A stretch of 64,000 nucleotides of DNA from Sphingomonadales bacterium (GTDB taxonomy: Bacteria; Pseudomonadota; Alphaproteobacteria; Sphingomonadales; Sphingomonadaceae), in NCBI GenBank assembly GCA_017309275.1, contig JAFKLT010000032.1, positions 1 to 64,000 of the forward strand, given 5' to 3'. The notes beneath the pieces were generated by a model. The model saw nothing but the letters and a program-made list of their open reading frames with translations, was not told where the DNA came from and ran no database searches. Below are positions 38,751-56,837 of the stretch, piece after piece (within the stretch, counting starts at the first letter, position 1; each line of letters begins with the position of its first letter). The translations under genes and the position numbers were made by a program.

Positions 38751-39494
38751 CTACTCGGTCATTTCGCGCATCATGCGATCGATCTTGGCCATGGCGTCGC
38801 GCTTGATCTGACAGACGCGCGCCGCGCTGACCTCCAGAGTCAGCCCGATCTCCTGCAAATTCAATTCCTCGAAGAAATAGAGCTGCAGCACCATCTGCTC
38901 GCGGCCGTTGAGCCTGGCGATGCACAGGCGCAGCGCATCGAGCATGTCGTGCTGCTCCAGCGCCTCGCCGGCACCAGTCCGGTCGTCGGCGAAGAGAAAG
39001 GATCCTTCGTCGACCAGTTCGTCGAGCGAGGTCGAGCGGCCGTGCGTCGCGCTTTTCTCGAGCGCGAAATAATCGTCGGGCGAAAGGTCCAGCGCCGCCG
39101 CCATCTCGGCGGTCGACGGGGCCCGGCGTAGCTGCTGTTCGAGCATCGCGCGCGTCTGGTTCAGTTGCCGCGCCGCCGCCATCGCCGATCGTCCGACATC
39201 GGCCTCGCGCCGTTGCTGATCGATCATCGCGCCGCGGATGCGCGTCGTCGCATAGGTGGCAAAGGCGAAGCCGCGTTCCTCGTAGGTCCGGCTCGCCTCG
39301 ATCAGCGCGATCAGCCCGACTTGGATCATGTCCTCAAGGTCGCTTGTGCGCGAGACCCGCGAATGGACCTGCCAGGCGATCTTGCGAACGAGCGGTGCAT
39401 ATTCCTCGATCAGCGCCTCGGCGCTTTCGCCATAGCCATGCGCCCGCGCTGCGCGGCCGCCCGCTCCGAATTGATCGGGGCGCTCAATTTTCAT
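38751..39494 (-). CDS. fliA: RNA polymerase sigma factor FliA (sigma-28)
   Basis: The 247 residues have region 2 (YAPLVRKIAWQVHSRV, DLEDMIQVGLIALIEASRTYEERGFAFATYATTRIRGAMID), region 3 (STAEMAAALDLSPDDYFALE) and region 4 with the DNA-binding helix (LNLQEIGLTLEVSAARVCQIKRDAMAKI). FliA transcribes late flagellar genes and is held by FlgM, encoded at 42804-43100. It overlaps flhA by 11 nt and is the last gene of the transglycosylase-flhA-fliA operon. Confidence 0.96.
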   Translation of the reverse strand: MKIERPDQFGAGGRAARAHGYGESAEALIEEYAPLVRKIAWQVHSRVSRTSDLEDMIQVGLIALIEASRTYEERGFAFATYATTRIRGAMIDQQRREADVGRSAMAAARQLNQTRAMLEQQLRRAPSTAEMAAALDLSPDDYFALEKSATHGRSTSLDELVDEGSFLFADDRTGAGEALEQHDMLDALRLCIARLNGREQMVLQLYFFEELNLQEIGLTLEVSAARVCQIKRDAMAKIDRMMREMTE

Positions 39495-41607
39495 GGGGCT
39501 CGTCCTTCATCTGGGCATCTTCGCCGCCGGTAAGGCGCGGCACTTCGGCGCCGATCGTGGCAACGATCTCGGTCGCCTTGTTCGCCGGGATTTCGAGGTA
39601 GGAGATCACCGCGACGTCGGGGAAGGTCGCGCGCACCAGCCGCGAGAGTGCCGAACGGCAGAGCGGCGAGGCGACGAGCGCAAAGCTGCGCGTCGACAGC
39701 AGGAGCGGTTCGACCGCCTGGCCGATCTGTTCGATGATCTTCATTGCCATGCCGTGCTCGAACGGCCATTCGGCGCCGGGATTGGCGCGCACCGCCTGGT
39801 TCAGCAGCACCTCGATATCGGGGCTGAAGGTCACGACGGGCAGCGGCATGCGGCTCGGCACGATCGTCTGCACGATCAGCGCGCCGATGCGCTGACGCAC
39901 CGCCTCGACCAGATCGTTGTCGCCGAGCTGCTGGCTGGCGAGCGACACCATCGCTTCGGCGATCTTGCGGAAGTCGCGGAGCGGCACGCGCTCGACGAGC
40001 AGCGCCTTGCACAGCGCCGCGACGCGCGGGAGGGCATAGCCCTGCGGCGACAGGCTCTGCGCGAGCTGCGGATAATGGGCCTTGAGATTGTCGATCAGCG
40101 CCTGCGCATCGTCGAGGCCGAAGAGTTCCGACGCCGAACCGATGATGCTGTTGTTGAGGTGCGTCGCGACCACGGTCGCGGGGTCGACCACGGTATAGCC
40201 CGCGGCGATCGCGTCGTTCTGCGACGATTTCGGAATCCACAGCGCGTCGAGGCCGAAGGTCGGATCCTTGCAGGGGCGCCCGGTAACCTTTGCGACGAGA
40301 TCGCCCGAATCGAGTGCGAGCATCTCGTTGGGGAATACCTCGTCCTCGCCGACGATCACCCCGGCGACCGAGATGCGGTAGACGTTGCCCGGCAGCGACA
40401 GGTCGTCGGCGACCTTCACCGGCGGAACGACGAACCCGAGTTCCTTCGAAAGCTGGCGGCGGATACCCGTGATGCGGGTCATCAGCGGCGCGCCCTTGCG
40501 TTCGTCGACCAGCGTGACAAGCGCATAGCCGATTTCGAGCTGGCATGGACCGACGTCGCTGACGTCCGCCCATTCGATATGGTGCGGATCGGGAGCGGGC
40601 GCGGCGGGCGGAGGGGCGGCCTGCGCCATCTGTTCGGCCTTGCGAAGCTGCCAGCCGATCCCGCCGGCGATCGCGGCGGCCGGAAGAATGAGCATCTGCG
40701 GCATCGCGGGAACGAGGCCGAGAATGAAGAGCACGCCGCCAACGGCCATCCAGACGTGCGGCGAGGCGAACTGGCTGCCGATCTGGCCCGAAAGATCGTG
40801 CGGCGAAGCGACGCGGGTGACGATCGCAGCAGCGGCGATGGAAAGCAGCAGCGCCGGAATCTGCGCGACCAGTGCGTCGCCGATCGCAAGCGTGACATAG
40901 GTGCTGCCGGCCTCGGAGAAGCTGAGGCCGTGGCTGAACATGCCCAGGATCAGGCCGCCGACGATGTTGACGAACAGGATCAGCAGGCCCGCGACCGCGT
41001 CGCCCTTCACGAATTTCGAAGCACCGTCCATCGAGCCGTAGAAATCGGCCTCGGTCGCGACTTCCTGGCGGCGAGCCTTCGCTTCATCGGGCGTCAGCAG
41101 GCCGGCGTTGAGGTCGGCGTCGATCGCCATCTGCTTGCCCGGCAAGGCGTCGAGGGTGAAGCGCGCCGACACTTCGGAAACGCGGCCGGCACCCTTGGTG
41201 ATGACGACCAGGTTGATGATCATCAGCACGACGAAGACGAAGATGCCGACGACATAGTCGCCGCCGATCAGGACCTGACCGAACGCCTCGATAACATGGC
41301 CTGCCGATGCCGTACCCTCATGCCCGTGGACGAGCACGACGCGCGTCGAGGCCACGTTCAGCGAGAGGCGGAACAGGGTCGCGAGCAACAGAACCGTCGG
41401 GAAAGCCGAGAAATCGAGCGGCTTGGACGCCTGGAGCGCGACCATCAGGATCGCGAGGCTGATCATGATGTTCGCGACGAAGCTGATGTCGAGGATGATC
41501 GGCGATACCGGGATCACCATCAGCGCGACGAGAATCAGCATCGCCGCGGGCAATGCCGCGGCCCCCGCGATGCGGGTGATGTTGCTCAGCTTGAGGCCGC
41601 CCATCAT
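39484..41607 (-). CDS. flhA: Flagellar type III export gate protein FlhA
   Basis: The 707 residues have eight TM helices in the N-terminal half with the FlhA signature VVITKGAGRVSEVSARFTLDALPGKQMAIDADLNAGL. A large cytoplasmic domain (about 350-707) follows, ending in RLTGGEDAQMKDEPHEN. FlhA forms the cytoplasmic ring of the flagellar export gate. ATG 41607 is preceded by GGAGG; a second ATG directly follows at 41604. The start overlaps the transglycosylase stop by a TGATG-like junction, and its own stop lies inside fliA. Confidence 0.97.
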   Translation of the reverse strand: MMGGLKLSNITRIAGAAALPAAMLILVALMVIPVSPIILDISFVANIMISLAILMVALQASKPLDFSAFPTVLLLATLFRLSLNVASTRVVLVHGHEGTASAGHVIEAFGQVLIGGDYVVGIFVFVVLMIINLVVITKGAGRVSEVSARFTLDALPGKQMAIDADLNAGLLTPDEAKARRQEVATEADFYGSMDGASKFVKGDAVAGLLILFVNIVGGLILGMFSHGLSFSEAGSTYVTLAIGDALVAQIPALLLSIAAAAIVTRVASPHDLSGQIGSQFASPHVWMAVGGVLFILGLVPAMPQMLILPAAAIAGGIGWQLRKAEQMAQAAPPPAAPAPDPHHIEWADVSDVGPCQLEIGYALVTLVDERKGAPLMTRITGIRRQLSKELGFVVPPVKVADDLSLPGNVYRISVAGVIVGEDEVFPNEMLALDSGDLVAKVTGRPCKDPTFGLDALWIPKSSQNDAIAAGYTVVDPATVVATHLNNSIIGSASELFGLDDAQALIDNLKAHYPQLAQSLSPQGYALPRVAALCKALLVERVPLRDFRKIAEAMVSLASQQLGDNDLVEAVRQRIGALIVQTIVPSRMPLPVVTFSPDIEVLLNQAVRANPGAEWPFEHGMAMKIIEQIGQAVEPLLLSTRSFALVASPLCRSALSRLVRATFPDVAVISYLEIPANKATEIVATIGAEVPRLTGGEDAQMKDEPHEN

Positions 41608-42425
41608 GCGTTGCCTCCAAGCGAGGCGAGGCGGCGATAGGCGCTTGCGGCGAAGTCCATCGACAATTTCTTTGGCATGGGCTGAATATCCATCATCGGA
41701 AGGGGCGGGCGTCCGCCGCCGGCGCCGCTGGCGCTGGCCATCTGCATGCGCCAGCCGGAAGCGGGTATGGCGGCGCCGGGCATCATCCCGGCACCGCCAT
41801 CCGCATCGAGCTTGGCGCGGAAAAATTCGCGAATTTCGCCGAGGCTGCGCATGCTGCCGTCGGCGTTGTAGAAGACGGGGCGGTTTGCCGCCGCGGCCTC
41901 GGGCATCATCGTCGCGCCGGCCTGGTCGGGATTTTCGTCCCATGCCGAAAGAAAACGGGCGGCCCCCGCCGATCCCAGAAAATGGGCGAGATACAGGTCG
42001 ACCGGCTCGGCGGCGCGGCCGATGCGGCTTTCGATATAGTCCTGGTTATCGGAGGTCAGCGCCGCGGCCATGTTCGAGGCCGCGACCGGATCGTCACGCA
42101 GGCCGAGGATCTGGTCGCGCAGCATGGGATCGGCGATGCTGAAGCGGCCCGACGCGTCCTGACCGATCGCGTTGGCTGCCCAGCCGAGCCCATGGTCCGC
42201 GCCGTGGCGGCGCAGCGTGGCGAGCCAGGTCTGCTTGGTGAACTGATAAAGCCCGCGCGCGGACGAGGTCGGCGCTTTTGCGGTGGGATTGAAGCGGCTT
42301 TCGACGCGCGCGACGTCGACCAGATAGTCGAAGTCGACCCCGGTGCGCGTCGATGCATTCTGAACCGCATCCAGGACGGGGACAGCGCCGGGCGCCGGTG
42401 TCGCAGAGGGGTTGATCAGGTTCAT
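41604..42425 (-). CDS. Lytic transglycosylase (SLT domain), probable flagellar rod-assembly hydrolase
   Basis: The 273 residues include DYLVDVARVESRFNPTAKAPTSSARGLYQFTKQTWLATL, the SLT fold with its catalytic Glu in ARVESRF (about residue 42), then the GSAGAARFL block. A linker and Pro-rich tail (PPLPMMDIQPMPKKLS) follow. It has no signal peptide, so export through the flagellar apparatus is likely, as for the SltF-type enzyme of Rhodobacter. FlgJ in this cluster lacks a muramidase domain, and this protein probably supplies it. It is led by a sigma-54 promoter at 42457-42472. Confidence 0.85.
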   Translation of the reverse strand: MNLINPSATPAPGAVPVLDAVQNASTRTGVDFDYLVDVARVESRFNPTAKAPTSSARGLYQFTKQTWLATLRRHGADHGLGWAANAIGQDASGRFSIADPMLRDQILGLRDDPVAASNMAAALTSDNQDYIESRIGRAAEPVDLYLAHFLGSAGAARFLSAWDENPDQAGATMMPEAAAANRPVFYNADGSMRSLGEIREFFRAKLDADGGAGMMPGAAIPASGWRMQMASASGAGGGRPPLPMMDIQPMPKKLSMDFAASAYRRLASLGGNA

Positions 42426-42456: not shown

Positions 42457-42472
42457 AGCAATCATCGTGCCA
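42457..42472 (-). promoter_or_regulatory. Sigma-54 promoter for the transglycosylase-flhA-fliA operon
   Basis: On the minus strand the sequence reads TGGCACG-ATGA-TTGCT, a near-exact match to the -24/-12 consensus (TGGCACG-N4-TTGCW). It lies 32 bp before the transglycosylase start, giving a short leader. A FleQ-box-like dyad sits about 86 bp upstream, within flgN. Confidence 0.92.
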
Positions 42473-42481
42473 TTTTGTAGA

Positions 42482-42503
42482 AAATCACAATAATATGTGA
42501 TTT
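42482..42503. repeat. AT-rich perfect dyad between flgN and the sigma-54 promoter
   Basis: Arms AAATCACA and TGTGATTT flank ATAATA. It starts just after the flgN stop codon and lies directly upstream of the sigma-54 element. It may be a weak flgMN terminator or a protein-binding site; its TCACA...TGTGA order is the reverse of a CRP site. Confidence 0.55.
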
Positions 42504-42504
42504 A

Positions 42505-42804
42505 TCAATAGCTTAATGCAAGACCCCGGTGGTGCGTTCCGCGGATTTGATGGTTCATGTCAATCCTCTGACGCGTCCAGTCCTTCAGGACGTTGACCCG
42601 GATGGCGGCCGCCTCGAGCTGGGCGAGGGTCTTTGTGATCAACGTGCGTGCCTGCGCTTCGCCCCCCTCGGGGATCGCGGCACCGCGAAAGAGGATCACC
42701 GCCGTCGCAAGTTCTTCGGTCGCGGCGATGATCGCGCCGGCATCCTGCCCGTCAAGAGCGCCGACCAGAAGGTCGAGCTTCGTCTGGATGTTTTCCATCG
42801 GCAT
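42505..42804 (-). CDS. flgN: FlgN-type flagellar export chaperone
   Basis: The 99 residues are helical and low in cysteine and aromatics. They match the FlgN layout (MENIQTKLDLLVGALDGQDAGAIIAATEELATAVILFRGA), with the C-terminal LKDWTRQRIDMNHQI region. FlgN chaperones FlgK and FlgL to the export gate, and both are encoded downstream in this cluster. Its start ATG 42804 overlaps the flgM stop (TGATG), so the two are coupled. The assignment leans on context as well as sequence. Confidence 0.75.
   Translation of the reverse strand: MPMENIQTKLDLLVGALDGQDAGAIIAATEELATAVILFRGAAIPEGGEAQARTLITKTLAQLEAAAIRVNVLKDWTRQRIDMNHQIRGTHHRGLALSY
42558..42573. promoter_or_regulatory. FleQ-box-like dyad inside flgN, likely enhancer for the flhA operon
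   Basis: TGTCAATCCTCTGACG matches CGTCAATCTTTTGACG at 43870-43885 in 13 of 16 positions. Both resemble the known FleQ box (GTCA-N-TAAA-T-TGAC). It lies about 86 bp upstream of the sigma-54 promoter at 42457. Confidence 0.7.
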
Positions 42805-43100
42805 CAGTCGGCGCGCCCCTGGGCGTAGCTCAGCATGGCGAGTGCGATATTCTTGGCATCGGTCGTGTAGGTGCCTTCGGCGATCGCGGCGCGCAGCGAG
42901 GCGACGCGTGCGGCGTCGACGGGCGGCGGCTGCGACGCGAGGTCGCTTGCAAGCCGTATCAGCTTTGCGCCCGGCAGCGCGGCAGACGCCGCGGAGTGCG
43001 ACGCCGCGGCGGTCGCCGCGTCGGCATTGCCCGTGATCTTGCGCACGGGAGCGGTGCGGACGACGCCGCCCACCGGCCCGATTTTGCTGTCTCCCGACAT
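42804..43100 (-). CDS. flgM: Anti-sigma-28 factor FlgM
   Basis: The 98 residues are short, charged and largely disordered at the N-terminus, with the conserved C-terminal region PVDAARVASLRAAIAEGTYTTDAKNIALAMLSYAQG that binds FliA. ATG 43100 has GGAGG seven bases upstream. ATG 43112 is in frame but lacks a good ribosome site. It is coupled to flgN. FlgM holds FliA until the hook is complete and is then exported. Confidence 0.88.
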   Translation of the reverse strand: MSGDSKIGPVGGVVRTAPVRKITGNADAATAAASHSAASAALPGAKLIRLASDLASQPPPVDAARVASLRAAIAEGTYTTDAKNIALAMLSYAQGRAD

Positions 43101-43189
43101 CTTCGCCTCCATAAGCCCCGTCGGAAAATCGACGGAAACGTCTCACAAGCGTTTAACGGATGGCGTTTCGGGAGATTAAGGGCCGGTTA

Positions 43190-43811: not shown

Positions 43812-43827
43812 TGCACGATGTGTGCCA
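43812..43827 (-). promoter_or_regulatory. Sigma-54 promoter for flgA
   Basis: The minus strand reads TGGCACA-CATC-GTGCA, close to the -24/-12 consensus with correct GG-N10-GC spacing. It lies about 40 bp upstream of the flgA start and 43 bp from the shared dyad at 43870. Confidence 0.8.
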
Positions 43828-43869: not shown

Positions 43870-43885
43870 CGTCAATCTTTTGACG
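43870..43885. promoter_or_regulatory. FleQ-box-like dyad between flgA and flgB
   Basis: CGTCAA-TCTT-TTGACG is a perfect dyad. It is midway between the two divergent sigma-54 promoters, 43 bp from the flgA -24 element and 75 bp from that of flgB. The sequence fits the FleQ-box type, so the sigma-54 activator at 53833 is the natural candidate to bind it. Confidence 0.72.
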
Positions 43886-43959: not shown

Positions 43960-43975
43960 TGGCACGCTGATTGCA
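43960..43975 (+). promoter_or_regulatory. Sigma-54 promoter for the flgB-flgL operon
   Basis: TGGCACG-CTGA-TTGCA is an exact match to the -24/-12 consensus. It lies about 97 bp before flgB. The AT-rich run just upstream could aid DNA bending. Confidence 0.93.
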
Positions 43976-53832: not shown

Positions 53833-54876
53833 ATGACCGAGGTGGGGCAGAACAAGGCGGATACGTCGGCGCTGGAAGCGCTGATCATCGGGCACAGCCC
53901 GGCGGTGGTCCGCCTGCGTGAAATGATCCGGCGGATCGCCCGATCGAACGCTTCGGTCATGCTGTGCGGTCCCTCGGGATCGGGCAAGGAACTCGTCGCC
54001 CGCGCCATTCACGACGAAGGCGCCCGGTCCGGCAAGGCCTTCTCCGCAATCAATTGCGGCGCAATCCCCGGCGAACTGATCGAATCCGAACTTTTCGGGC
54101 ATGAAAAGGGCAGCTTCACCGGCGCCCATGCCCGCCGCATCGGTCATTTCGAAGCGAGCGAGGGCGGTACGCTCTTTCTCGACGAAATCGGCGACATGCG
54201 TTTCGACATGCAGGTCAAGCTGCTCCGCGTCCTGGAGGACCGGACGATCGTCCGCGTCGGCAGCAGCGAGATGAAGAGCGTCGACGTCCGCGTCATTTCG
54301 GCAACGCACCAGGACCTTGGCATCGCGATCTCCGACGGCCGCTTCCGCGAGGACCTGTTCTTCCGTCTCGGCGTCGTCGTGCTTCAGGTGCCCAGCCTGG
54401 CCGACCGCGTGGAAGACATACCGGCGCTGATCCGTCACTTTCAGCGCAAGATGCCGGCCGACGCCAAATGCCGCTATGACGACGCCGCGGTCGCGTTGCT
54501 GATGCATCACGCCTGGCCGGGCAACGTCCGCGAACTTCGCAACTTCGTCGAGCGCGCCAGTGTCCTTCACGGCGGCGAAACGCTTGGCGCGGATGATGTC
54601 GCGATACTTTTGAACCCGACCGCAGCGCTGGCGCCGCGGCCGTCCTTCGCCGGCGACGACGACCAGCCTGCAGGAATGCCCTTTGCGAAGACGCCGGCTC
54701 CGGGCCGTCCGATCGACCTCAAGCGCGAGATCGAGACGATCGAACTCGAACAGATTCACAATGCGCTCGATCTCGCCGACGGGATCATCTCGGAAGCCGC
54801 GCGTCTGCTGACGCTCAAGCGGACGACGCTGATCGAAAAGATGCGCAAATATGGAGTTCAGCAGCAGGCCGCCTAA
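53833..54876 (+). CDS. Sigma-54-dependent activator without receiver domain (FlbD/FleQ-like)
   Basis: About 347 residues: a short N-terminus, an AAA+ domain with Walker A GPSGSGKE (about 46-53), the sigma-54 contact loop GSFTGA (about 93-98, where most family members have GAFTGA), Walker B LFLDE (114-118) and arginine finger region GRFREDLFFRL. A Fis-type HTH follows at the C-terminus (IISEAARLLTLKRTTLIEKMRKYG). ATG 53833 is preceded by GGAG. The absence of a receiver domain implies control by other means. It lies between motAB and fliDS and probably drives the flagellar sigma-54 promoters. Confidence 0.9.
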   Translation: MTEVGQNKADTSALEALIIGHSPAVVRLREMIRRIARSNASVMLCGPSGSGKELVARAIHDEGARSGKAFSAINCGAIPGELIESELFGHEKGSFTGAHARRIGHFEASEGGTLFLDEIGDMRFDMQVKLLRVLEDRTIVRVGSSEMKSVDVRVISATHQDLGIAISDGRFREDLFFRLGVVVLQVPSLADRVEDIPALIRHFQRKMPADAKCRYDDAAVALLMHHAWPGNVRELRNFVERASVLHGGETLGADDVAILLNPTAALAPRPSFAGDDDQPAGMPFAKTPAPGRPIDLKREIETIELEQIHNALDLADGIISEAARLLTLKRTTLIEKMRKYGVQQQAA

Positions 54877-55002: not shown

Positions 55003-55407
55003 TTACTGGCGGAGTTGACGCCAGGCCGAGCTGACGGTGACGATGCCGCCCAGCAGCTCGTCGAGTTCCTCGGCGTCGTTGGCGGCCACGGCATCGTCGA
55101 GCTTGCGGCGCATGCTGCGATAGACGCGGGCGAGAGCCTCGGCGACGTCGCCGCCATTGTCATGGTCCAGCCCGACGTCCAGCCCGATGAGGATCGACCG
55201 CGCGCGATGCGCAGGCTCGGTCGCCGACACGCGCTGCCCCTGACGCACCATCGACGCCAGCACGCCGATCGCCGTCTCCAGCTCGTCATACAGCATGGTG
55301 ACCAGCTCGATCGGATCGGATGCGATCGCGCGGCTTTCGTTCTGCAAACGACGGTAAAGTCCGGCGGCGCGGACGGTCGAGGCGGTTGCGGGCACGGTCG
55401 TTACCAT
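55003..55407 (-). CDS. fliS: Flagellar export chaperone FliS
   Basis: The 134 residues are helical with the FliS pattern: GLYRRLQNESRAIASDPIELVTMLYDELETAIGVLASM. FliS prevents early assembly of flagellin and delivers it for export. Its start codon overlaps the fliD stop (TGATG). Here the flagellin gene itself is not in the window. Confidence 0.9.
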   Translation of the reverse strand: MVTTVPATASTVRAAGLYRRLQNESRAIASDPIELVTMLYDELETAIGVLASMVRQGQRVSATEPAHRARSILIGLDVGLDHDNGGDVAEALARVYRSMRRKLDDAVAANDAEELDELLGGIVTVSSAWRQLRQ

Positions 55408-56777
55408 CAGTTGTTATTCGAATTGGTCCACAGCTTGATCTGCTGTTCGAGATAGGCCTGCGTCGCCTTGAAGGCGTTCAGTTTGACGTCGAGCGCGGCA
55501 TATTGCTTCTCGAGCCGCGCCTTGTAGGCGGCCTCGCGCTCTTCGACCTTGGTGAGCTGTTCGGACAGCGACTTGCTCTTGTCCGCCAGCGATTTCTCGA
55601 CCCGCCCGATCGACCCGTCGGTCGCGACGGCCTTGTCGCGGATCGCGTCGAGTACGCCGGCGATACCCGGATCGGTGGTGCTGTTGTGGGTGCCGTCGCG
55701 CAGCGGATTGAACAGCGCCTCGACCGCACCGGCATCGGTGGCGAGCATCGCGTCGAGCTTGGTCTTGTCGAGCGTCAGCGTTCCGTCTTTCGCCGTCGAG
55801 ATGCCGATGTCCGAAAGCTTGTTGATGCTGCCATGGCTGGTCAGCACCTTGTTGACCATGCTTTGCAGCTCGCGCTCGAGTTCGCGCAGGCTGGTCGTGT
55901 CGCCCGACAGCTTCGATGCCGCCTGCAGGCTCTTCTTGAGCTGGTTGTAGACATCGACGAAATCGCCGACGGTCTGCTTGATCAGGTCGAGCGGGCGGTT
56001 CGCGCCGATGTCGACCGGCTGGCCAGGGGCTGCCTTCTTGAGCGTCAGAGAAACACCCGGAATGACGTCGTCGATCGTGTTCGACGCGCGGCTGAAGGCG
56101 ATGCCGTCGACCGTGAATTCGGCATTGGCGGCGGACTGGCCGACCGACAGGCCGCCATTGGTGGCGAAGGCGCTGAGCCCCGGATCCGCTCCGGAGTCGG
56201 CGGTCAGCGTGAAGGCATTGTCCGCGCCCGTCGCACCCTTCAGGATCAGGCGACTGCCGCCCTGGTCCGAAATGATCGACGCGGTGACCCCGGCGCCGCT
56301 CGCGTTGATCGCGGTGGCAAGGCCTTCGAGGCTGTTGTTGGTGCTGCCGACCGTGATCGTCTTGGCGACGCCGTTTACGGTCAGCGTCATCGTTCCGGTG
56401 CCGATCGCGGCGGTCTTGTCGGCGATGATGCCCGAATAGCTGCTCTGCGCGCGCGCCAGGCTGTTCACGACGAGCGTCGCGGCAAATTTGTCGGCCTGCA
56501 GGCCGGCGCGAGCGGTCGCGGAAAGAACGCTTTCGTCGGACACGGTGGGCTTGCTGCGCAGGGAGCCATCGGAAATCATCTGCTCGAGCGAATCGGCGAA
56601 GCCGACGAGGTCCGATCGGGCTTGCGATACCGCGCTGATCCGCGCCTGATTCGCGGTGACCATGCCGTTGAGACGCGTGACCTTGGGCTCGCGCGAGGCG
56701 CTCGACAGGTCGGTGACCAACTGTTTGATGTCGATACCCGAACCGGCGCCGAGAGAGCTGGCGATTGACGTGACCAT
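55407..56777 (-). CDS. fliD: Flagellar filament cap protein FliD
   Basis: The 456 residues begin MVTSIASSLGAGSGIDIKQLVTDLSSASREPKVTRLNGMVTANQARISAVSQARSDL and end in EEREAAYKARLEKQYAALDVKLNAFKATQAYLEQQIKLWTNSNNN, the FliD (HAP2) pattern. It caps the filament tip. It follows a sigma-28-like promoter (56800-56825). The length is within the family range. Confidence 0.95.
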   Translation of the reverse strand: MVTSIASSLGAGSGIDIKQLVTDLSSASREPKVTRLNGMVTANQARISAVSQARSDLVGFADSLEQMISDGSLRSKPTVSDESVLSATARAGLQADKFAATLVVNSLARAQSSYSGIIADKTAAIGTGTMTLTVNGVAKTITVGSTNNSLEGLATAINASGAGVTASIISDQGGSRLILKGATGADNAFTLTADSGADPGLSAFATNGGLSVGQSAANAEFTVDGIAFSRASNTIDDVIPGVSLTLKKAAPGQPVDIGANRPLDLIKQTVGDFVDVYNQLKKSLQAASKLSGDTTSLRELERELQSMVNKVLTSHGSINKLSDIGISTAKDGTLTLDKTKLDAMLATDAGAVEALFNPLRDGTHNSTTDPGIAGVLDAIRDKAVATDGSIGRVEKSLADKSKSLSEQLTKVEEREAAYKARLEKQYAALDVKLNAFKATQAYLEQQIKLWTNSNNN

Positions 56778-56799: not shown

Positions 56800-56825
56800 T
56801 TAACGGACCGTTTTTCGGGTCTTTA
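56800..56825 (-). promoter_or_regulatory. Sigma-28 (FliA)-like promoter for fliDS
   Basis: On the minus strand, TAAAGACC-N10-TCCGTTAA resembles the FliA consensus TAAAGTTT-N11-GCCGATAA (TAAA box exact, -10 element 6 of 8). It lies 23 bp before the fliD start, after flhB's stop. The 1-nt shorter spacer lowers certainty. Confidence 0.6.
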
Positions 56826-56837
56826 AGCGCCGAAGGC

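Follow-up and report, generated by a model that had tools for sequence, protein, structure and literature searches.

A conserved dyad inside flgN as a probable upstream activating sequence for the sigma-54 promoter of a sphingomonad transglycosylase-flhA-fliA operon

Introduction

Where can the activator of a sigma-54 flagellar promoter bind when a coding gene ends only 32 bp before that promoter? The question is raised by the window analyzed here, a stretch of 64,000 nt from a Sphingomonadales bacterium (assembly GCA_017309275.1, contig JAFKLT010000032.1, positions 1 to 64,000). Its minus strand carries genes for a lytic transglycosylase, FlhA and the sigma-28 factor FliA, preceded by flgM and flgN. 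The original prediction placed a FleQ-box-like enhancer for this operon within flgN.

In Pseudomonas, as here, the FleQ box is a 14-bp pseudopalindrome, GTCA-N6-TGAC, and ChIP-seq puts flhA, fliE, flgA and flgB among the FleQ targets (excerpt of PMC6120874). In those ChIP-seq data, sites for IHF and sigma-54 masked any other motif, and a robust FleQ consensus could not be derived (PMC6120874). Elsewhere the box is given as GTCAAT-N2-ATTGAC, with one upstream box being typical of flagellar operons (excerpt of PMC10723142).

Results

The promoter and the dyad inside flgN

The operon and its upstream region comprise the following features.

38751..39494, minus strand: fliA, sigma-28 (TIGR02479 FliA_WhiG, 202 bits, above cut-off)
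39484..41619, minus strand: flhA, export gate protein, start codon provisional (FHIPEP, E 2e-232)
41604..42425, minus strand: lytic transglycosylase with an SLT domain, heading the sigma-54 operon (PF01464, E 5e-8)
42457..42472, minus strand: sigma-54 (-24/-12) promoter TGGCACGATGATTGCT of the transglycosylase-flhA-fliA operon (0 mismatches to TGGCACG-N4-TTGCW)
42505..42804, minus strand: flgN, export chaperone by position, host gene of the proposed enhancer (open reading frame; homologue in 44 of 45 loci, own included)
42558..42573, core 42559-42572, minus strand: proximal dyad CGTCAGAGGATTGACA, proposed site of the FleQ-like activator, at flgN codons R-Q-R-I-D
42584..42597, minus strand: imperfect distal dyad GTCAACGTCCTGAA, lying 25 bp farther upstream than the proximal dyad, with a gap of 111 bp to the -24 element (one mismatch)

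Sigma-54 promoters follow the consensus TGGCACG-N4-TTGCW, in which GG and GC are invariant. This pattern is matched exactly at two sites in the window, 42457-42472 on the minus strand and 43960-43975 on the plus strand, before flgB. The former had been described as an almost perfect sigma-54 promoter; its coordinates and letters were right, and we found no mismatch. The transglycosylase was found in 45 of 79 genomes (own included), all 45 belonging to the same genus, from which 48 genomes had been drawn. Every one of the 45 loci was inspected, and in each the -24/-12 element is present with at most one mismatch. Genome-wide, TGGCNCG-N4-TTGCW has exact matches at 10 places, 3 of them in the flagellar locus. 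One-mismatch scans were discarded as evidence, since they showed no excess (114 and 133 sites versus 147 and 120 for the reversed-pattern control), and zero-mismatch and composite patterns were therefore used. A single sigma-54 gene, rpoN, is present in the genome. The transglycosylase is 93% identical to that of S. soli strain BL03, and the closest titled loci are from Sphingopyxis, so the genome probably belongs to that genus or stands next to it; a plasmid origin was rejected, there being no plasmid match. Between the flgN stop and the promoter lies an A+T-rich inverted repeat, AATCACATATTATTGTGATT (42483-42502), which by eye is absent from most of the relatives printed.

The dyad core, GTCAGAGGATTGAC (42559-42572), lies inside the flgN frame (42505-42804) and 86 bp upstream of the -24 element, as predicted. 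Its 16-nt extension, TGTCAATCCTCTGACG (42558-42573), has the same letter as CGTCAATCTTTTGACG of the flgA/flgB gap (43870-43885) at 13 of 16 positions, which reproduces the earlier count. Assignment of both dyads to the FleQ-box type also holds, by a consensus that is itself disputed: 10 of the 12 named positions of GTCAAT-N2-ATTGAC are matched at 42559 and 11 of 12 at 43871.

Bare GTCA-N6-TGAC is common, occurring at 137 places in the 5.1-Mb genome, and we rejected a single-dyad scan as proof. Because the dyad is common and one-mismatch promoters show no excess, neither a bare dyad nor a sigma-54 site proves anything alone. A background frequency of dyads had been named in advance as grounds for refutation; the bare dyad is indeed at background, but the combination of dyad and promoter escapes it. 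Two matches to the composite GTCA-N6-TGAC, 66-96 bp, TGGCAYG-N4-TTGC exist genome-wide, and both fall in the flagellar locus; the control pattern has none. About 0.008 would be expected by chance (274 dyad ends x 31 spacings x 10 sites / 10.2 Mb of strand). Among 396 genomes of the order, 22 contain the composite, comprising 16 of the 19 same-genus genomes drawn (own included) and 6 others, and 1 contains the control pattern. The 6 outside the genus (G087, from another family, and G148, G197, G277, G375 and G380) were matched by pattern alone.

A perfect dyad is found in 44 of the 45 same-genus loci, with a gap to the promoter of 86 bp in 39, 85 bp in 3 and 87 bp in 2; these counts are not independent, because the genomes are related. 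The 49 closest titled loci (L169-L217), many of them strains already in the same-genus set and hence not independent of it, gave gaps of 86 bp in 44, 85 bp in 3, and 87 and 89 bp in 1 each. The exception, G015, is the most diverged same-genus genome with the operon (transglycosylase 57% identical). It keeps the promoter and lacks the dyad.

Other sigma-54 promoters of flagellar genes

Dyads of the same type accompany two divergent promoters in the window.

43812..43827, minus strand: sigma-54-like promoter TGGCACACATCGTGCA of flgA, 43 bp from the shared dyad (two mismatches)
43870..43885, no strand assigned: dyad CGTCAATCTTTTGACG common to the divergent flgA and flgB promoters (19 of 20 relatives)
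43960..43975, plus strand: sigma-54 promoter TGGCACGCTGATTGCA of flgB, 75 bp from the shared dyad (0 mismatches; flgB, PF00460)

Of the 19 dyads in the flgA-flgB gap of the 20 relatives, 14 are perfect and 5 have one mismatch. The distance to the flgA element is 43 bp in 18 of these relatives and 75 bp in 1; that to the flgB element is 74-75 bp in 13, 64 bp in 5 and 86 bp in 1. The same gap in G015 holds a one-mismatch dyad alone, 158 bp from a two-mismatch element. For fliE, the promoter lies outside the window, on the minus strand of contig C25 at 68824-68839. We scanned for its dyad at a looser limit, with two mismatches allowed. Across 30 genomes (own included) this dyad is half-degenerate, with one mismatch in 19 and two in 11, the latter typically CGTCAAAAAAATGCCG; it lies 63 bp from the promoter in 27 genomes and 62, 52 and 65 bp in 1 each. 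G015 (L138, L168), a small genome, has an unusually placed dyad near flgA and a poor one before fliE. Family matches confirm fliE, fliF, flagellin, fliD and flgB.

A second dyad and other genera

In the 31 remaining titled loci (L218-L248, of which L218, L219 and L225 are also titled Sphingopyxis), dyads were sought 30-116 bp upstream of the promoter. At 83-112 bp, 20 of them have a dyad that is perfect or has a single mismatch, and 10 have no dyad; L238 (Sphingobium) has a one-mismatch match that we counted as chance. The dyad lies in the upstream reading frame in the 19 loci printed of these 20. Eight loci (L222, L225, L226, L228, L229, L233, L234, L245) have a perfect dyad, GTCAAATATCTGAC, at 111-112 bp, together with a one-mismatch dyad at 86-87 bp. 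They include four of the six loci titled Sphingorhabdus, the other two having a perfect dyad at 83 and 88 bp (L223, L227). Five more (L221, L230, L231, L237, L241) have a perfect dyad at 110 bp. There are two dyad places, 25 bp apart, and different lineages appear to have perfected different ones.

A group of mostly Sphingobium loci (L235, L236, L238-L240, L242-L244, L246-L248) keeps the sigma-54 promoter and not the dyad, apart from the one-mismatch match in L238. Several of these show, by eye, a GC-rich hairpin followed by a run of T after flgN. Since G015 and the Sphingobium-type loci keep the promoter without the dyad, the transglycosylase operon can evidently be driven otherwise.

Within the genus, the spacings between dyad and promoter share a helical phase. 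Six distinct values (43, 52, 63, 64, 75 and 86 bp) are in phase at 10.5 bp (R 0.88, Monte Carlo p 0.004), and with the period scanned from 9.5 to 12 bp the best fit was 10.9 bp (p 0.007). All 11 distinct same-genus spacings, a set that includes near-duplicates and is not independent, gave R 0.80 and p 0.0003. The distal 111 bp site is about half a turn off phase, and its addition brought p to 0.07. Sister-genus sites do not fit; as a general rule helical phasing was rejected (p 0.12 with all 18 distinct spacings, other genera included). Because the 110-112 bp sites of other genera break the phase, we claim phasing for the own genus only.

The activator

One gene in the window is the candidate for reading the dyad.

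53833..54876, plus strand: receiver-less, FleQ-like sigma-54 activator with AAA+ domain and Fis-type HTH (PF00158, E 3e-66; PF02954, E 2e-9)

Its designation as FleQ held in part. The AAA+ domain and the Fis-type HTH are present; no FleQ N-terminal or receiver domain was found in the protein, which has no Pfam match before residue 19, and we therefore call it FleQ-like. At the 30 same-genus loci compared (own included), 12-123 open-frame residues precede the aligned part. The best solved relative is Pseudomonas FleQ (E 1e-86), with an alignment that runs through the HTH, and the HTH end RTTLIEKMRKYG resembles RTTLVEKMRKYG of FleQ. None of the NCBIfam activator models listed reached its cut-off, the best being NtrC (328 bits of 559); FlbD scored 281 of 750. 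FlhF was rejected as a FleQ partner; its three matches all fall below the family cut-off.

An orthologue at least 74% identical is present in all 44 same-genus genomes with the dyad. G018 carries the orthologue, and the transglycosylase was not found there. For 17 of the 31 further loci (L218-L248), the genome was searched as well. All 10 with the dyad carry an orthologue of the short activator (54-79% identity; the L218 copy is cut short), and the nine readable ends all read RTTLIEKMRKY. In the 7 counted as without the dyad (L235, L236, L238, L242, L246, L247, L248), the best matches were longer proteins, 40-45% identical (41-49% in a separate search), with another HTH. Because no close orthologue of the short activator was found in these seven, another activator must work in dyad-less Sphingobium-type loci. 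G015 has a 50% identical activator with an altered helix, GIQRTTLIGKMNKY. This co-occurrence suggests that the dyad and the short FleQ-like activator are linked, the seven sampled Sphingobium-type genomes having neither.

Could the dyad be real and yet be read by a regulator other than the one at 53833? With the activator itself counted, the genome yields 8 matches to it, which shows that it is not the sole sigma-54 activator; dyads of similar sequence may also be recognized by Fis-type HTHs. But across the 17 genomes compared, the dyad and the activator helix are present or absent together; G015, whose helix is altered, has no dyad; and the activator gene lies within the same flagellar locus. 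We regard a different reader as quite unlikely.

flgM and the order of expression

Upstream of flgN, and at two further genes, elements of another type are found.

42804..43112, minus strand: flgM, anti-sigma-28 factor (PF04316, E 6e-11; TIGR03824 above cut-off)
43154..43179, minus strand: sigma-28-type promoter TTAA-N16-CCGTTA before flgMN (exact; 42 of 45 loci)
56801..56826, minus strand: sigma-28-type element TTAA-N16-CCGTTA before fliD, 55407-56777 (exact; FliD_C, E 2e-39)
contig C25:68925-68950: sigma-28-type element TTAA-N16-CCGTTA before flagellin (exact)

No sigma-54 element with at most two mismatches was found upstream of flgM in the 45 loci, L053 being covered for 38 bp only. Exact copies of TTAA-N16-CCGTTA number five genome-wide; flgM, fliD and flagellin are each preceded by one, and the reversed control is found twice. 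The flgM copy is missing at 3 of the 45 loci: L053 reaches a contig end, and L078 and L085 lack the element. The pattern resembles the sigma-28 consensus, and from this likeness and its three genes it looks like the sigma-28 promoter of the genus. As flgM, fliD and flagellin share the element, flgMN is probably expressed late and the transglycosylase-flhA-fliA operon early. The same shared element lends support to the earlier proposal that flhA and fliA would be expressed independently of flgMN.

Alternatively, the operon might be transcribed mainly by read-through from the flgMN sigma-28 promoter, with the sigma-54 promoter minor, or the dyad might mostly repress. A scan of this genome found no terminator in the 32 bp between the flgN stop and the sigma-54 promoter, and FleQ represses some promoters (excerpt of PMC10723142). 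Yet the -24/-12 element is kept at all 45 same-genus loci, and Sphingobium-type loci keep it although several show the hairpin and T run after flgN, as judged by eye. Moreover, a supply of FliA from sigma-28 promoters only would presumably be unable to start itself. Expression chiefly by read-through, or a mostly repressing dyad, is thus improbable.

Codon constraint in flgN

A family search with flgN gave no Pfam or NCBIfam match. We compared the codons at the dyad in 44 aligned flgN genes, with the rest of the same genes as background; shared ancestry lowers the effective number. CGT and ATT are each used in 44 of 44 (background 7.1% and 6.5%), as are CAG and GAC (88% and 85%). The third codon is AGG in 32 and CGG in 12 (AGG background 1.9%), and the codon after the dyad, where it encodes arginine, is AGA or AGG in 20 of 20 (AGA background 0.5%). 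No other conserved flgN column in the alignment fixes so rare a codon; TTA comes nearest, in 29 of 42 (6.8%), where the IHF-like stretch overlaps the flgN stop. Because rare codons (CGT, ATT) are fixed there, the DNA of the dyad itself appears to be constrained. It is extremely unlikely that conservation of the FlgN peptide T-R-Q-R-I-D alone accounts for the dyad and that the dyad has no regulatory role. The peptide residues are indeed invariant (44/44), and CAG and GAC are simply the usual codons. But CGT and ATT are fixed despite about 7% use elsewhere, and the next arginine codon is restricted as well. Like dyads also precede flgA/flgB and, in degenerate form, fliE, where the DNA is non-coding, and a perfect dyad stands at the other flgN position, 25 bp away, in 8 further loci.

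An IHF-like element

One more element lies between the dyad and the promoter.

42503..42515, minus strand: IHF-like site TAAGCTATTGATA (tentative), overlapping the flgN stop codon, 30 bp upstream of the -24 element (0 mismatches to consensus)

The IHF consensus is YAANNNNTTGATW. In 34 of 44 loci the best match departs from it at no more than one position, in 32 of them 29-31 bp from the promoter, compared with 2% of mononucleotide shuffles. Because the site overlaps the flgN stop, coding may contribute to its conservation. A strong claim for IHF was weakened by variation among relatives, 10 of the 44 loci having no match within one mismatch. Between the dyad and the flgB promoter, an IHF-like site was seen in the own genome and a few relatives. 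We tentatively place an IHF-like element between enhancer and promoter.

Discussion

We propose that the flgN dyad (42559-42572) serves the sigma-54 promoter (42457-42472) as an upstream activating sequence and is bound by the FleQ-like activator, a reading to which we give a probability of about 0.83. The fixed spacing, the codon constraint, the recurrence of the dyad at other sigma-54 flagellar promoters and its co-occurrence with the activator all argue for the predicted enhancer within flgN. Against it stand the frequency of the bare dyad, the promoters kept where no dyad is present, the mismatches in the fliE dyad, the loss of phase once other genera are added, and the failure of Pseudomonas ChIP-seq to yield a robust FleQ consensus.

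From the sequence, its conservation, the codon constraint and the co-occurrence, we infer activator binding, looping and an order of expression, which would run as follows. A dimer of the short activator would bind the dyad through its Fis-type HTH; the bound protein would oligomerise and, by looping of the DNA, contact sigma-54 polymerase at -24/-12. Transcription of transglycosylase, flhA and fliA would then fall into the early class, together with that of flgA, flgB and fliE. The site may lie inside flgN because that gene ends so close to the promoter, with synonymous codons chosen to keep it. flgMN would follow from its sigma-28 promoter, so that sigma-28 would be made before more of its anti-sigma factor.

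Several known systems are similar in part. The activator shares with Pseudomonas FleQ a near-identical HTH end, RTTL-EKMRKYG, and differs in having no FleQ N-terminal domain; the genome has no FlhF above cut-off. In P. aeruginosa, fliA is independent of sigma-54 (excerpt of PMC7064773), whereas here it follows flhA in a sigma-54 operon. Caulobacter FlbD/ftr likewise offers alphaproteobacterial sigma-54 flagellar promoters with enhancer and IHF, and ftr elements can sit downstream of the promoter (excerpt of PMC3096577). FlbD has a receiver domain and works with FliX; in the genome studied here no FliX was found, and the FlbD model is far below its cut-off. The Fla1 system of Rhodobacter sphaeroides, another alphaproteobacterium, uses sigma-54 activators, FleQ and FleT, with the fliE genes first and fliA later (excerpt of PMC7277832). 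It differs in having two partner activators and flgM and fliA in one sigma-54 class, whereas flgM here has a sigma-28-type element. In E. coli, too, sigma-54 regulatory DNA lies within genes and is conserved at the bases that matter (excerpt of PMC4591121), but there it is the sigma-54 sites that are intragenic; here the proposed enhancer lies within a gene and the promoter between genes.

In kind, then, the mechanism is a known one. The new points are where the proposed enhancer sits (within flgN), the codon signature that goes with it, the differences in its position between lineages, and an activator that has no receiver domain. Among the matches listed in a search of the open-access literature, none was a paper on sphingomonad sigma-54 flagellar enhancers, which is weak evidence of absence.

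A more speculative, and rather doubtful, extension is that the 3' end of flgN serves both as coding sequence and as a control module. It would offer the activator two possible sites, 25 bp apart, and which of them has been perfected would differ between genera. Late transcription of flgN through the enhancer might then displace the activator and shut fliA off, or might read through and boost it, so that a feedback loop would arise from gene order.

For a sphingomonad genus, these data outline a flagellar regulon that is explicit and can be tested. It comprises putative sigma-54 promoters, each accompanied by a dyad, for flgA, flgB, fliE and the transglycosylase operon, along with sigma-28-type elements before flgM, fliD and flagellin. 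Co-occurrence links a FleQ-like activator that lacks a receiver domain to a DNA box. The data also suggest that a control element can persist inside a coding gene through codon choice, with its position differing between genera.
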